64,000 nt of DNA, taken from assembly GCF_007671725.1 (NCBI RefSeq), contig NZ_VCNM01000003.1, positions 1 through 64,000 of the forward strand, written 5' to 3'. Under the pieces are notes generated by a model. The model had not been told where the DNA came from and searched no databases. It saw only the letters and a program-made list of their open reading frames with translations. The stretch comes from Halorubrum depositum. Its GTDB lineage: Archaea > Halobacteriota > Halobacteria > Halobacteriales > Haloferacaceae. Below are positions 19,993 through 26,736 of the stretch, one piece after another. Position 1 is the stretch's first letter, and the number at the start of each line of letters is the position of its first letter. The translations under genes were made by a program, and so were the position numbers.

Positions 19993-21795
19993 ATGTCATC
20001 TCTCAAACTCAGTAGACGGTCGATTCTGGCGCTCGCCGGTGTCGGGCTGACGGGTGGGTGTACTCGGCGGGCCGAGACCGCAGCCTCCCGCGACGAACAG
20101 CGACCGCTCTCAGTACGAATCAAGACAGTTCCTGCCGACCGGGACGCGGCAGCGATGAAACTCGCGCGATACCTAGCGACGCAACTCCAACAGGTCGGGA
20201 TCGGTGCTACCGTCGTCCCAATGAGTCGCGAGCAACTCCGCCAGTCGGTCCTCACGAACCACGACTTCGAGATGTACGTCTACCGCCTCCCGCTCCGTCG
20301 AGACCCGGATTTTCTTCGTCCGGCCCTGCACTCCCGATTTGCACCCGACGGCGGGTGGCAGAATCCATTCGGGACCGAGGACCGACCGCTCGACAAACTA
20401 CTGAAGCGGCAGCGGACCGAACGCGGAACAGCTCGGACCTCGACGCTACGTGAGATCCAAACCCGCCTCGTCGGGGACCAGCCGTTCACCCCCATCGCAG
20501 TCCCGGACTCGACGTGGGCGAGTCGCCCTGATCGGGTCGAATGGCCCGGCAGAGTACCGCCGCACAGCGCCTTGTCGTACCTCTCGGCCCGAACGGTCGA
20601 CTCCGATTCGACCGCGACGACGTCGACGACGGCGACGTCGACTTCGGAAACCCGGCTTCGGATGGCGCTGACCGACGCGCGACCGACCGAGAACCTGAAC
20701 CCGTTATCCGCGTCGTTCCGGGCCGGCAGATCGATCGTTCGACTCGTCTACGATTCGCTCGGCCGGACGTACGACGGAGCCGTTCGGCCGTGGATGGCCT
20801 CGTCGTGGACGTGGCACGAGGGCGACTCTAACGCGCTGTCCGTCGACCTCCGCGAGGGCGTCGAGTGGCACGACGGGAGGTTGGTAACCGCATCCGACGT
20901 GGCGTTCACGTTCGACCTCCTCTCCGATACCGCTCTCGGGTCGCTCGACCGACCGGTCCCGTCGCCGCGGTACCGTGGCCGCACGTCGCTCGTCAACGAG
21001 ATCACCACGCAGTCGTCGCACGAGCTGACGCTCGAGTTTGGCGACGTGGACGAGTCGGTCGCCAAGCGCGCGTTGTCGGTCCCGATACTCCCGAAACACG
21101 TCTGGGAGCAGTACGCGCGCCGGACGAAAGCGGCCCGGATCGACGGTAGCGACCGCACGGAGGCACTCGAGCGGAAGAACCTCGATCCGGTCGGAAGCGG
21201 CCCGCTTCGGGTGACCGAGGCGGCCCCGGGAGAGTCGCTCTCGATGGAACCGTTCGAGTCGCACTTCCTCTCGACGGGGGGCGTCGGCGAGTCGCTCGTC
21301 GAGTTCGACGGCGGCTTCTCGTTCGACGCGCTGGAGTTCACCGTCCTCCCGTCCGGTGGAGCCGTCGTCGAACTGCTGTCGGATGGCACCCTCGACGCGT
21401 CGGCGAACTCGCTGTCCCCCGGAGCGGCGAAGAAGGCGAGGGAAGACGACGAACTCGCCGTGGAAACCGGAGAACCGCAGTGGTGCTATCACGTCGGCTA
21501 CAATCACCGAAGGCCGCCGTTCGACGATGCCGGGTTCAGACGGGCGGTCGCCCGACTCGTGGACCGGTCGTCCCTCGTTGACACGCTGTTCGACGGCGAG
21601 GCGACACGGGTCGTGTCTCCGCTCGGGACGACGCGGTACGCGCCCGAGGGCGACGAGTGGGACGACTCGCTCGCCGACGTCCGGTTCCTCGGCGAACCCG
21701 GAAGCGACTCTCTCGACGTCAAAAGAGCGAAGTCGACGTTCTGTGACGCCGGGTACACGTATTCGTCTGACGGCGAGCTGCTGATAGACGAATGA
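19993..21795 (+). CDS. Circularly permuted peptide-type ABC substrate-binding lipoprotein (SBP_bac_5)
   Basis: The 600-residue protein begins with a Tat-like signal (KLSRRSILALAGVGLTGGC) ending in a lipobox Cys. Residues about 35-205 match the C-terminal lobe of family-5 solute-binding proteins: a YLATQLQQVGIGATVV helix, the NHDFEMYVYRLPLRRDPDF strand, and TLREIQTRLVGDQPFTPI. A Ser/Thr linker follows (about 206-217). Residues about 218-600 match the N-terminal lobe and hinge: ENLNPLSA, VYDSLGR, LREGVEWHDGRLVTASDVAFTF, PILPKHVWE, PVGSGPLRV, then YNHRRPPFDDAGFRRAVARLVDR. The chain ends at DAGYTYSSDGELLIDE, where normal family members continue into what is here the N-terminus. No permease genes are adjacent; the PAP2 gene overlaps its stop. 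Confidence 0.85.
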   Translation: MSSLKLSRRSILALAGVGLTGGCTRRAETAASRDEQRPLSVRIKTVPADRDAAAMKLARYLATQLQQVGIGATVVPMSREQLRQSVLTNHDFEMYVYRLPLRRDPDFLRPALHSRFAPDGGWQNPFGTEDRPLDKLLKRQRTERGTARTSTLREIQTRLVGDQPFTPIAVPDSTWASRPDRVEWPGRVPPHSALSYLSARTVDSDSTATTSTTATSTSETRLRMALTDARPTENLNPLSASFRAGRSIVRLVYDSLGRTYDGAVRPWMASSWTWHEGDSNALSVDLREGVEWHDGRLVTASDVAFTFDLLSDTALGSLDRPVPSPRYRGRTSLVNEITTQSSHELTLEFGDVDESVAKRALSVPILPKHVWEQYARRTKAARIDGSDRTEALERKNLDPVGSGPLRVTEAAPGESLSMEPFESHFLSTGGVGESLVEFDGGFSFDALEFTVLPSGGAVVELLSDGTLDASANSLSPGAAKKAREDDELAVETGEPQWCYHVGYNHRRPPFDDAGFRRAVARLVDRSSLVDTLFDGEATRVVSPLGTTRYAPEGDEWDDSLADVRFLGEPGSDSLDVKRAKSTFCDAGYTYSSDGELLIDE

Positions 21796-22604
21796 ACGCC
21801 TCGCCCCTGCTGTCGATACTGGGAGCGGTCCTCAGTGGAGCGGCGCTCGCGCTCCTCGGTGCGACGCTCATCGTCGTCGGTCCGACTCGGCTTCGGCTCA
21901 GCGTCGGCACCGTCCGTGAGCGCGTTCGAGACGCCGCGCCGTACCTCGGGTTGCTCGCCGTGGTACTCGTCGTAAACAAGGTCGCTCGTGACGTCGGTCC
22001 GGCGGTCTCGTGGGCCATCGGGTGGAACGTGACCGGCCTCATCTACGCTATCGAGGGCGACTTCGTCGAACACGTCCAGTCGCTGGCGACGCCCACGCTC
22101 ACTGCCGTCTTCTCGACGGTGTACCTCTCCGGCTACGTCTTCCTGCTCTCGTTCCCGTTCGTGGCCTACCTCTTCTCGGACGACCGGCGACCGCTGAAAC
22201 TCACCGCGGTGGCGTACGCGGCGAACTACGTGATCGGGCTGACCTGCTACATCCTTTTCATCTCGTACGGGCCGCGAAACCTCCTCCCGGAGCACGTCGA
22301 CTCGCTCCTCTACGCGACGTACCCGCAGACGCAGATCCTCACCGGCGAGGTGAACGTGAACACGAACGTCTTCCCCTCGCTCCACACCTCGCTGTCGGTG
22401 ACGACGGCCATCGTTGCCCTGCGGACGCGGAGGACGTATCCCGTGTGGGCGGTCGTCGCCCCGATCATCGCGGCCATGGTCGCCTTCGCGACGATGTATC
22501 TCGGAATCCACTGGGCCGTCGACGTCGCCGCCGGGTGCGTCCTCGGCGCCGTGAGCGTCGCCGTCGGAGACCGGCTCATCGACCGCCGCACGAACGGGAC
22601 ATAA
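21792..22604 (+). CDS. PAP2-superfamily membrane phosphatase/transferase
   Basis: The 270-residue protein has six or so membrane helices. The PAP2 active-site motifs are present: GPRNLLP, FPSLHTSLS (in place of PSGH), and LGIHWAVDVAAG, in which the His and Asp are the catalytic pair. The PSLH-T form is typical of Aur1/inositolphosphotransferase-like and archaeal PAP2 enzymes acting on phospholipids or polyprenyl pyrophosphate. Its ATG overlaps the stop of the permuted binding-protein gene (ATGA), so the two are translationally coupled. The pairing suggests both act at the outer face of the membrane, but the substrate is unknown. Confidence 0.85.
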   Translation: MNASPLLSILGAVLSGAALALLGATLIVVGPTRLRLSVGTVRERVRDAAPYLGLLAVVLVVNKVARDVGPAVSWAIGWNVTGLIYAIEGDFVEHVQSLATPTLTAVFSTVYLSGYVFLLSFPFVAYLFSDDRRPLKLTAVAYAANYVIGLTCYILFISYGPRNLLPEHVDSLLYATYPQTQILTGEVNVNTNVFPSLHTSLSVTTAIVALRTRRTYPVWAVVAPIIAAMVAFATMYLGIHWAVDVAAGCVLGAVSVAVGDRLIDRRTNGT

Positions 22605-22777
22605 CCACCAGTGACCGGGGCGGTCCGTCCTCGTCGCCGTTCGTTCTCACCGTCCGCCCCGTACCGACGTACCGGCCGGTGGTCCGAGAGGCCGTCGAGC
22701 GCGTCTCCACTGCGAGATCGTCCCGCGCTTCCGGGGCATCCCAAACATAGTTGGTGGAAGACCCAACACCGTGAAGA

Positions 22778-22788
22778 CGGTATTACCG
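22778..22788 (+). promoter_or_regulatory. Palindrome just before an HTH-protein start
   Basis: CGGTA-T-TACCG is a perfect 11-bp palindrome ending 2 bp before ATG 22791. It could be an autoregulatory operator. A looser pair, GTTGG...CCAAC, lies just upstream (22750-22766). Confidence 0.35.
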
Positions 22789-22790
22789 AT

Positions 22791-23339
22791 ATGCCGAAAC
22801 GAACCGACGACGAAGCTCATTCGTCCCTCCTCTACCCCGATCGGATCGAGGATGAGTCTTCATCCAATCAACGGTCGTCACCGCGTACGCCGGTTCTCTC
22901 GACGCTCAAGCGTGCGCTCACCGCCGTCGTGCTCTCCCTCTGGACGGTCGTCGAAACGAACGCTGCAGCGACACGGTCCGCCGGCGCGGAGTTCCGCAGG
23001 TCGTCCGCCGCTCTCGGTACGCAGTCGGACGAGCGGTCTGCGGTGGCCGCCGGCTCGGGCTCCGGTCGAACGAGTGTCGAATCCCGCGTCTCCGCGACGG
23101 ACGCCGACCATCCGCTGGTGGGTGTCGACCCCGAACTCCTCAATCCCGAGCGCCGCACCCTCCAAGTCCTCATCGTCGAAGGCGGCGTGGTCGAACAGTC
23201 GGCGTTGGTCGAACGCACCCGCTGGACGGACTCGACGATCAGTCGAACCCTCTGTCGGATGGAGACTCAGGGGCGGATCGAGCGACGACGAGAGGGAACC
23301 GGGAAGCTCGTTCTCCTGCCGCAGAACCGGGAGAACTGA
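22791..23339 (+). CDS. MarR-like winged-helix protein (DUF7343 type)
   Basis: The 182-residue protein has a disordered N-terminus and a modestly hydrophobic stretch (ALTAVVLSLWTVVETNAA, about residues 42-60) that might be a membrane helix or only an amphipathic one. After a Ser/Ala-rich linker comes a C-terminal winged helix (ERRTLQVLIVEGGVVEQSAL to GRIERRREGTGKLVLLP, about residues 120-178). The same wHTH type occurs at the C-terminus of the membrane regulator at 31430-32755. ATG 22791 is directly preceded by an 11-bp palindrome. Targets are unknown; nearby candidates are the SBP-PAP2 pair or the glycan locus. Confidence 0.65.
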   Translation: MPKRTDDEAHSSLLYPDRIEDESSSNQRSSPRTPVLSTLKRALTAVVLSLWTVVETNAAATRSAGAEFRRSSAALGTQSDERSAVAAGSGSGRTSVESRVSATDADHPLVGVDPELLNPERRTLQVLIVEGGVVEQSALVERTRWTDSTISRTLCRMETQGRIERRREGTGKLVLLPQNREN

Positions 23340-23511
23340 CCGACCTCCGACACGCCACGTCGCCGTTGAGGGGCGATTCGATCCCAAATCAATTAGGTTC
23401 CTTCGAGAAATGGACGCGTATCAGTATTTGCGCTGCTCGTTTCGGGACTGACCTCGATACGCGTTGCGGGTACGCGTCGGGGGACAGCGACCGGGGGTAA
23501 CAGAGACACCG

Positions 23512-26500
23512 ATGACATCTCAGACAACTGTTCCACAGGATTCGAAGGAAACGGTCCTCGGACGAATGACGGACGCGGTCTTCGCGCTTGACGACCGATG
23601 GCGGTTCACGCATCTCAACGATCGCGCGGAGGAGGTGCTGGACGCCGAGGAGGAAAACCTCCTCGGCGAGGCGGTGTGGGACGAGTTCCCAGAGGCCCGC
23701 AACACGACGTTCTACCGGGAGTACCGCCGAGCGGTCGAAGCGCAGGAACCCGTCTCGTTCGAGGAGTACTTCGAGCCGTTGGAGGCGTGGTTCTCCGTCC
23801 GGGCGTATCCCTCGGAGTCCGGCCTCACCGTCTACTTCCGTGACGTGACCGACGAGCACGACCGGCGAGCCGAACTCGAACGCGAACGCGCGCGGCTCGC
23901 GGTTCGCGAGCGGTTCGACGACGTCCTCACCGACGTGTCGAAACTGGGAACGAACGCGCCGAGCCTCGCCGACTTCCAGAGCCGACTGACCGATCGCTTC
24001 CACCGTGTCGACGGGATCCGCGCCGTTCGGATCGACGAGGTCGAAACCGGGGAGCCCGCGGCGGACCGACAGGACGGCGTCGGGAACCTCGAGTTCGGTC
24101 CGGAGCTCCCGGGCGGGTTCGTCGACGCCGTCGACCGCCGCGACGTCACGCGGGTGTCGACCGCACAGACGAACGCGGAGTGGTCGGATATCGCCGGTGA
24201 CGAGTTAGTGTTCGTTCCGCTCGTCACCGGGAGCCAGTTCTACGGCGTCGCGACGTTCTCCGTCGAGGAGCGTCTCGGCTCGTACGCGTGCGAGTCGTTG
24301 TTCGGTCACGTGGCCGAGACGATCGGGTGCGCCGTCGAGAACCTGTTCCGGCGTGAAAAGTGGCGATCGGTCGCCCACACCCTCGAACAGGTCGACGCGG
24401 GAGCGTACGTCGTCGATGCCGACGACGACATCGTGTGGGTGAACGACTCGTTCGCCGAGTACGTCGGCATCGACCCCGTCGACATCGTCGGCAGCGACAA
24501 CGAGCTGTTCGTCGAACACCGTCTCGCGTCGGTGCTCGCCGACGCCGAGCAGTTCACGCGGCGTCTCTCGGGCGCCAGGTCGACGAGCGACGACCGACCG
24601 GAGGACCGTACCGCCCGGGTCACCGAGAGTTACGACCGGGAGGAACGGGTGCTCGAACACGAGGCGGAACCGGTCGAGGTCGGCAGGTTCGAGGGCGGAA
24701 CCGCTCACGTCTTCGAGGACGTCACCGAAGAGGCGGCCGCGGAGCGATCGTTGGCCGAGACCGAATGGATCCGCGAGTCGCTCCTCGAGAGCTTCCCGGG
24801 GATGGCGTATCGGTGCCGAGACGACAGCGAATGGGAGATGGACTTCGTCGCCGGGACCGTCGAGTCGCTCACTGGGTACGGCGCCGGAGAGATCCAGTCG
24901 ACCGTTTCGTGGGGCGACACGGTCGTGGACCCGCGAGACCGACGGAACGCCTGGGAGTCGATCCGATCGCAACTCGAAGACGGCGACACGTTCGAGGTGA
25001 ACTACCGGATCGCCCGCCGCGACGGCACGACCCGATGGGTCTGGGAGCGCGGGCGCCGCGTCGAGACGCGAGACGGGACGCGTCTCGCCGGGTTCGTCAG
25101 TGACGTGACGGAGAAGCGAAACACGGAGGACCGCCTCAAGTGGGAGGAAGGCCGGTTCCAGTCGCTCGTCGAGCACGTCTCCGGATACGCCATCTTCACC
25201 GTGAACCGCGAGGGGCGCATCGAAAGCTGGAACGACGGTGCGGAGGCCATCACCGGATACGATGCGGACGAAGCGACCGGAAGACACCTCTCGTCGTTCG
25301 CCCCTGCCGATAGGGACGACAGCTGCCTCTCCGAGTCACACCTGACCGAAGCGTCCCTCTCCGGCGAGTCGTACGACGAGGGGTGGGTACAGACCAGCGA
25401 CGGCCGCCCGTTTTGGGGCCGCGTGGTCCTTCGGGCGATCACCGACGAGGACGGCGGTGACGTGTACGGGTTCGTTGCAGTCATCCGGGACATGACCGAG
25501 CAGCGGGAGCGACGGCGTGAGCTCGAACACCAGCGCGACGAACTCGTCACGCTGAACCGAATCAACGCCGTCGTTCGCGACATCGACCGGGCGCTCGTTC
25601 AGGCGCGGAGTCGCGAGGAGATCCGTACCGCGATCTGTGAGCGACTCGCGGACGACGAGCGGTACGAACTGGCGTGGATCGGCGAGAGCGACCACGCCCG
25701 CAACGTGGTCACTCCCATCGAGTGGGCCGGAGACGAGACGGAGTACGTGGACGGCCTCGACGTGAGGATCGACGGCGAGCGCGGGGGCGGCCCGGTCGGA
25801 CGGTCACTCGAGTCCGGGACCATCTCGGTCGTCCAGCGGATCGCCGACAACCCGGCGTTCGGCCCGTGGCGCGAGGACGCGCTCGAAAACGGGTTCGAAT
25901 CGAGCGCGTCGATCCCCATCGAGTACGGCGGCGTCCCCTACGGCGTCCTCTGCGTCTACAGCGGCGAGGCCGGGGCGTTCGACGAGCGCGAAAAGCGACT
26001 GCTCGCCGAACTCGGAGAGATGGTCGGATACGCCCTCAACGCCGTCGACCGGAAGCAGGCGCTCGTCGAAGAGTCGATGACCGAGATATCGATGGAGCTG
26101 ACCGAGAGCCTCTCGGATTTCACCGACCTCACGCACGGCACTGACGGCCGCGTGACGCTCACCAGTTCGGTCGAGACGGGCGACGGGGCGTTCCGGCAGT
26201 ACATTCGAACGGACGGCATCGACCCCAACGACGTCGCCGAGGTCCTGGAGGAGAACGAGCGGGTCCGTTCCGTCGAGGTCCTCAGCGACCACGCGGCGAA
26301 CGGGTCGCTCGCGATCAGTACGGACACCGCTCCCCTCATGCAGACCGTCGCCGTCTACGGCGGTCGCGTCGGCGAGGTCGTCGCCGAGGGCGATACGGTC
26401 TCCATCGACGCTCGGTTCCCCACGGAAACGAACATCCGTTCAGTCATCGAGCGGTTCCGCGAGCTGTACCCGGACCTCGAAGTGATCGCTAAGCGCCCCG

Positions 26501-26736
26501 TCTCGCCGGAGGACGAGGCGGAGCGTCTCGCGACGCTGGTCGCAGACGAACTGACTGGTCGGCAGGCCGAGGTGCTGGAGACGGCGTATCAGGCCGGCTA
26601 CTACGAGTGGCCGCGCGATACGGACGGGACGGAGCTCTCGAACCAACTGAACGTGTCGGCGGCAACGCTGTCTCAACACCTTCGCACCGCACACGACAAA
26701 GTCGTCGGGAGCATCGTCAAACAGCGACTGGAGTGA
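23512..26736 (+). CDS. Multi-PAS/GAF sensor with bacterio-opsin-activator output (Bat-like)
   Basis: At 1074 residues this is a large cytosolic one-component regulator. The order read from sequence is: PAS about 1-105, GAF about 120-275, PAS about 290-400, PAS about 420-540, PAS about 550-665, GAF about 690-855, bacterio-opsin-activator domain about 855-975, and a C-terminal HTH_10 (LTGRQAEVLETAYQAGYYEWPR, then LNVSAATLSQHLRTAHDKVV). ATG 23512 starts MTSQTTVPQDSKET; codons upstream are weakly open but unsupported. There is no histidine kinase domain. Such proteins integrate light, redox or small-molecule signals. No opsin gene is in the window, so its target is open. Confidence 0.88.
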   Translation: MTSQTTVPQDSKETVLGRMTDAVFALDDRWRFTHLNDRAEEVLDAEEENLLGEAVWDEFPEARNTTFYREYRRAVEAQEPVSFEEYFEPLEAWFSVRAYPSESGLTVYFRDVTDEHDRRAELERERARLAVRERFDDVLTDVSKLGTNAPSLADFQSRLTDRFHRVDGIRAVRIDEVETGEPAADRQDGVGNLEFGPELPGGFVDAVDRRDVTRVSTAQTNAEWSDIAGDELVFVPLVTGSQFYGVATFSVEERLGSYACESLFGHVAETIGCAVENLFRREKWRSVAHTLEQVDAGAYVVDADDDIVWVNDSFAEYVGIDPVDIVGSDNELFVEHRLASVLADAEQFTRRLSGARSTSDDRPEDRTARVTESYDREERVLEHEAEPVEVGRFEGGTAHVFEDVTEEAAAERSLAETEWIRESLLESFPGMAYRCRDDSEWEMDFVAGTVESLTGYGAGEIQSTVSWGDTVVDPRDRRNAWESIRSQLEDGDTFEVNYRIARRDGTTRWVWERGRRVETRDGTRLAGFVSDVTEKRNTEDRLKWEEGRFQSLVEHVSGYAIFTVNREGRIESWNDGAEAITGYDADEATGRHLSSFAPADRDDSCLSESHLTEASLSGESYDEGWVQTSDGRPFWGRVVLRAITDEDGGDVYGFVAVIRDMTEQRERRRELEHQRDELVTLNRINAVVRDIDRALVQARSREEIRTAICERLADDERYELAWIGESDHARNVVTPIEWAGDETEYVDGLDVRIDGERGGGPVGRSLESGTISVVQRIADNPAFGPWREDALENGFESSASIPIEYGGVPYGVLCVYSGEAGAFDEREKRLLAELGEMVGYALNAVDRKQALVEESMTEISMELTESLSDFTDLTHGTDGRVTLTSSVETGDGAFRQYIRTDGIDPNDVAEVLEENERVRSVEVLSDHAANGSLAISTDTAPLMQTVAVYGGRVGEVVAEGDTVSIDARFPTETNIRSVIERFRELYPDLEVIAKRPVSPEDEAERLATLVADELTGRQAEVLETAYQAGYYEWPRDTDGTELSNQLNVSAATLSQHLRTAHDKVVGSIVKQRLE

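Follow-up and report, generated by a model that had tools for sequence, protein, structure and literature searches.

A circularly permuted peptide-type binding protein of Halorubrum depositum whose gene overlaps a PAP2-superfamily gene

The gene at 19993-21795 (forward strand) of the window, a 64,000-nucleotide stretch of Halorubrum depositum contig NZ_VCNM01000003.1, encodes a 600-residue lipoprotein in which the two halves of an SBP_bac_5 solute-binding protein (SBP) seem to stand in exchanged order. This raises the question of whether the protein is a circular permutation of one complete fold and, if so, what it does beside the PAP2-superfamily gene that overlaps it. An earlier note had placed both halves in one frame, and the gene is indeed a single open-reading frame from an ATG at 19993 to a stop at 21795, with no internal stops. 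This uninterrupted frame argues against a misjoining of two neighboring reading frames by assembly or gene prediction, an explanation that is ruled out because the same order is present in dozens of independent genome assemblies, including annotated plasmid records.

The protein, all of whose parts are encoded on the forward strand, begins with a signal containing a twin arginine (SRR) and a lipobox leading to Cys23 (LTGGC; 19993-20061, by motif). The arginine pair and lipobox cysteine are kept in all 62 haloarchaeal members that were aligned, and Tat export and lipidation of the protein are predicted. Profiles place the block that is ordinarily C-terminal at residues 36-193 (20098-20571), with DPDF at residues 104-107 and GWQNPFG at 121-127, and the block that is ordinarily N-terminal at residues 221-600 (20653-21792), ending in AGYTYSSDGELLIDE at the permutation breakpoint. 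Between the two, the alignment places a variable Ser/Thr-rich linker (approximately residues 194-220; 20572-20652) that connects the former C- and N-termini. The Ser/Thr linker described earlier is present in this protein but was rejected as a defining part of the architecture, because the join varies in composition and in length, from a few to ~ 40 residues in haloarchaea, and is short (~ 9 residues) in bacterial relatives. GC3 is unequal across 19993-21792, at 0.71 in the first block and 0.85 in the second.

In a Pfam search, the 600-residue protein scored 148.2 bits against SBP_bac_5 (PF00496; cut-off 32.4), with residues 264-595 aligned to model positions 2-285. With the first 200 residues searched alone, residues 10-99 aligned to model positions 271-346 (E = 7.5e-5), a match that by itself lies under the Pfam cut-off; against a C-lobe profile made from normal-order proteins only, the N-terminal block matched at E = 3.7e-13. 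A full-length profile drew only on proteins with the normal order, taken from H. depositum and from other genomes, and to this profile the native protein aligned in two pieces of reversed order, residues 203-588 to positions 41-377 (198 bits) and residues 37-179 to positions 391-531 (43 bits). Once the first block had been transferred to the C-terminal end, the sequence gave one collinear match of 252 bits over profile positions 57-531, compared to no more than 200 bits in any of 200 controls in which this block was shuffled before rotation. Normal-order proteins that were rotated artificially gave two out-of-order matches, as the native protein does. The permuted order claimed in the earlier note was thus recovered with Pfam and with the full-length profile, the native coordinates being swapped in both and, for the full-length profile, collinear after rotation. 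The usual order of the halves, which the Pfam definition of SBP_bac_5 does not include, is thus exchanged in a protein that otherwise belongs to this family (cluster C) with both lobes, as seen from the one-piece match of the rotated sequence and the high pTM of the model described below.

An AlphaFold2 model, computed from an alignment of 60 permuted proteins, had a pLDDT of 88.6 and a pTM of 0.86, with low values confined to the signal and a portion of the linker, which agrees with the earlier claim of one complete fold. Strands at residues 36-38 and 596-599 flank the breakpoint, one on each side, and the pTM together with the C-terminal strand suggests a single hinge at which the new termini come together. 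A Foldseek search of the PDB returned cluster C proteins with AppA at the top, over ~ 400 aligned columns and with a best TMq of 0.46, a value that covers one part of the protein because Foldseek aligns sequentially and is unable to show the whole permuted match. The permuted order was not found among the PDB chains listed by the profile search. A monomer prediction of this kind is compatible with domain swapping, and the chain might be read as two incomplete half-domains brought together by fusion that fold only as a domain-swapped dimer, or as a degenerate remnant. We consider this highly improbable, as each half occurs exactly once per chain, the join shrinks to ~ 9 residues in bacterial members, the pTM is high, and conservation is strong over many genera. 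Swapped profile coordinates, collinearity after rotation, a single confident model, and conservation in relatives together make the natural circular permutation of this binding protein solid.

The H. depositum genome contains six SBP_bac_5 proteins, three of them permuted: the 19993-21795 protein, C3:82719-84602, and C1:1196283-1198085, the last of which is ~ 21% identical to the first. Among 125 SBP open-reading frames at the related loci that were fetched, 87 were permuted and 38 had the normal order, a proportion that is enriched by the query and does not represent a natural frequency. Other haloarchaea, which the earlier note had proposed to search for the order, do carry it: within the class Halobacteria, a permuted ABC-type profile matched 88 of 145 genomes at E of 1e-60 or better, nearly all over the whole profile. 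Permuted relatives were found in Halobacteria, Halomonadaceae, Rhodobacterales, Desulfobacterota, Actinomycetota, and others, and the permuted order was seen in the bacterial isolates tested (Halomonas relatives, Pararhodobacter, Aliihoeflea, and Phytoactinopolyspora). In tblastn searches, matches on plasmids of Nitratireductor, Ketogulonicigenium, Microvirga, and Neorhizobium were collinear over most of the permuted query. The view of the permutation as a haloarchaea-only oddity was rejected, since bacterial ABC operons contain the same order. Near-identical permuted SBPs also occur on contigs of soda-lake MAGs that are placed in different phyla (L083, L084, L085, L086, and L088), a mixture that is probably due to binning errors.

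In a tree of rotated sequences, 52 of 53 permuted proteins formed one group (SH-aLRT 96). The exception, L090:4947-6725, is a permuted SBP from a Thermoproteota MAG with the same breakpoint, a proline stalk, and a C-terminal membrane anchor. Its place outside the main permuted clade makes an independent permutation possible in this case and would fit a history in which the rearrangement arose several times at one loop. Such repeated origin is conceivable but is, in our judgment, the less probable history, given the grouping of the other 52 proteins and the fact that a single clade of all permuted rows was not rejected when forced (p-AU 0.105, on a 38-row subset under a simple model). From these comparisons, the permutation appears to be ancient and common to many archaea and bacteria.

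The permuted SBPs are of two genomic kinds, ABC-type and PAP2-linked (P0001-type). At ABC-type loci, a permease gene adjoins the SBP gene in 12 of 12 haloarchaeal loci, in most bacterial loci, and at the C1 paralog, which lies in a complete ABC operon. At P0001-type loci, a PAP2 gene is found directly downstream, mostly overlapping, in 54 of 57 loci as well as in the window, and in four of four further loci; no permease was seen at these 57 loci, in the window, or at the four further loci. A single P0001-type locus (L051) has ABC genes nearby, on the opposite strand and past the PAP2 gene. The PAP2 gene was not found in the locus DNA examined at L029, L033, and L039, three loci of one genus, and in Natrialbaceae some second permuted copies have no PAP2 gene after them. 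Natrialbaceae also contain tandem cassettes (L053, L059, L066, and L070) in the order permuted SBP, PAP2, permuted SBP, which in L066 is followed by a second PAP2 gene. In the window, no ABC genes lie beside 19993-21795, and the 189-kb contig on which it resides has no binding-protein-dependent permease. The designation "ABC binding protein" used in the earlier note thus has support in the wider permuted class, whose ABC-type branch has partner permease and ATPase genes, but none from the surroundings of the 19993-21795 protein and its orthologs, which are coupled to PAP2 and have no such partner genes beside them. It is doubtful whether this protein should be labeled an "ABC transporter component", and "peptide-type" refers here to the fold class, with any ligand putative.

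The partner gene (21792-22604, forward strand) shares a 4-base overlap (ATGA) with the SBP gene and encodes a 270-residue PAP2_3 membrane protein containing NVFPSLHTS and YLGIHW..D, as seen by Pfam, alignment, and model. It scored 60.7 bits against PF14378 (cut-off 27), and the PSLH and GIHW..D motifs are of catalytic type and invariant or nearly so in 41 members. By profile and catalytic motifs, the protein belongs to the PAP2 superfamily, and its enzyme activity is putative. Its predicted model (pLDDT 89.8) has as its nearest solved structures Aur1 and inositol phosphorylceramide synthase (9ivc and 9vj4), with which it shares the PAP2 superfamily fold; the match is modest (E = 4e-4, TM 0.56 for Aur1) and identity is 16-19%. 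Archaeal membranes, unlike the setting of those enzymes, are not known to contain ceramide.

Downstream of the cassette (22611-26736), the window contains a DUF7343 gene and a PAS sensor with a Bat-like HTH. The DUF7343 gene encodes a winged-helix protein (22611-23339, forward strand, open-reading frame as listed) that may be a regulator and whose true start may lie downstream. The permuted SBP-PAP2 cassette on Haloferax gibbonsii plasmid pHG2, which in its public annotation has the identical 4-base overlap, has a DUF7343 homolog nearby (75% over 81 residues); the related DUF7343 and HTH genes follow that cassette in an order reversed compared to the window. Upstream, most loci, including most Halorubrum-type loci, have a conserved uncharacterized protein directly 5′ of the cassette (e.g., L009:5414-6613 and L123:6468-7937), with an extracellular N-terminal part and hydrophobic C-terminal segments and with no Pfam or NCBIfam family over cut-off. 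The ~ 560 bp upstream of 19993-21795 do not contain this membrane-protein gene, which is present 5′ of most relatives.

The closest relatives of the 19993-21795 protein belong to a different genus within the family (59-61% identity) or lie on H. gibbonsii plasmids (57-60%), while sampled genomes of its own genus gave only matches in the 38-45% class. Because the nearest relatives lie outside the genus and matches within it are weaker, this copy was likely acquired by horizontal transfer from a Haloferax-like source.

Given these results, we are highly confident that the gene product is a Tat-exported, membrane-anchored SBP_bac_5 (cluster C) solute-binding protein that is naturally permuted, the linker joining the ordinary termini and the new termini lying in the loop after "...AGY...DG.L". 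The permutation is old and was shared with permuted SBPs of haloarchaea and bacteria that continue to work with ordinary ABC importers. One branch within Halobacteria, that of 19993-21795, lacks ABC neighbors, and its gene overlaps one for a PAP2-superfamily membrane protein; order, tree, and neighbors are observed, and the direction of descent is inferred. The gene overlap is no proof of joint function, and we rate the permutation combined with some form of functional connection to PAP2 at slightly better than even.

The SBP might still feed an ABC importer encoded elsewhere through a shared permease, with the PAP2 adjacency incidental or serving a downstream step. Orphan SBPs that share permeases exist, and the genome holds a permuted SBP in the complete ABC operon on contig C1, but that SBP shares only ~ 21% identity, the PAP2 link is kept across many genera with ABC genes absent, and all four peptide-class ABC systems detected in the genome come with a binding protein of their own, which leaves the two PAP2-linked SBPs over. 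On this evidence, the protein is unlikely to be an orphan receptor for an ABC importer encoded at a distance, and a PAP2-accessory role is favored. In that accessory role, the SBP would still close on a small extracellular ligand and, instead of taking part in import, would act together with PAP2 at the exterior face of the membrane, where it may present a substrate or head group to PAP2 or regulate it. We put ligand closure and work with PAP2 at the outer face at a little short of an even chance. A more specific proposal, in which a haloarchaeal branch of an ancient, widespread class of permuted peptide-type SBPs was repurposed from import to an extracellular receptor-enzyme module made up of two genes, the second coding for an Aur1-like PAP2 phosphotransferase or phosphatase, is offered tentatively.

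The protein resembles other cluster C SBPs (AppA, 1xoc; NikZ; OppA; DppA) in profile over both halves, in conserved motifs, and in its best fold matches over ~ 400 columns, and differs from them in the swapped order of the halves. A naturally permuted bilobed binding lipoprotein that maintains its fold is Tp0684/MglB-2 of Treponema pallidum ("Type Ic / Cluster Bc"), a glucose-binding protein of type I, cluster B, in which the permuted part has a large insertion and poor sequence conservation (PMC4990184). The 19993-21795 protein is likewise a naturally permuted binding lipoprotein, but of another fold class and with another breakpoint: it matches cluster C structures, with neither a type I/cluster B fold nor homology to MglB, and both of its halves are recognizable by profile. 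A search limited to open-access full texts, with subscription papers outside its scope, found no description of permuted peptide-type binding proteins, Treponema MglB-2 being the sole permuted class encountered. Annotated records name the permuted members simply ABC transporter substrate-binding proteins; profile searches score mostly one half, so the rearrangement is missed. This large natural set of permuted proteins with both halves recognizable allows the effect of permutation on hinge, anchoring, and transporter docking to be tested, and the PAP2-linked branch, if the link is true, would represent a binding protein no longer tied to ABC transport.
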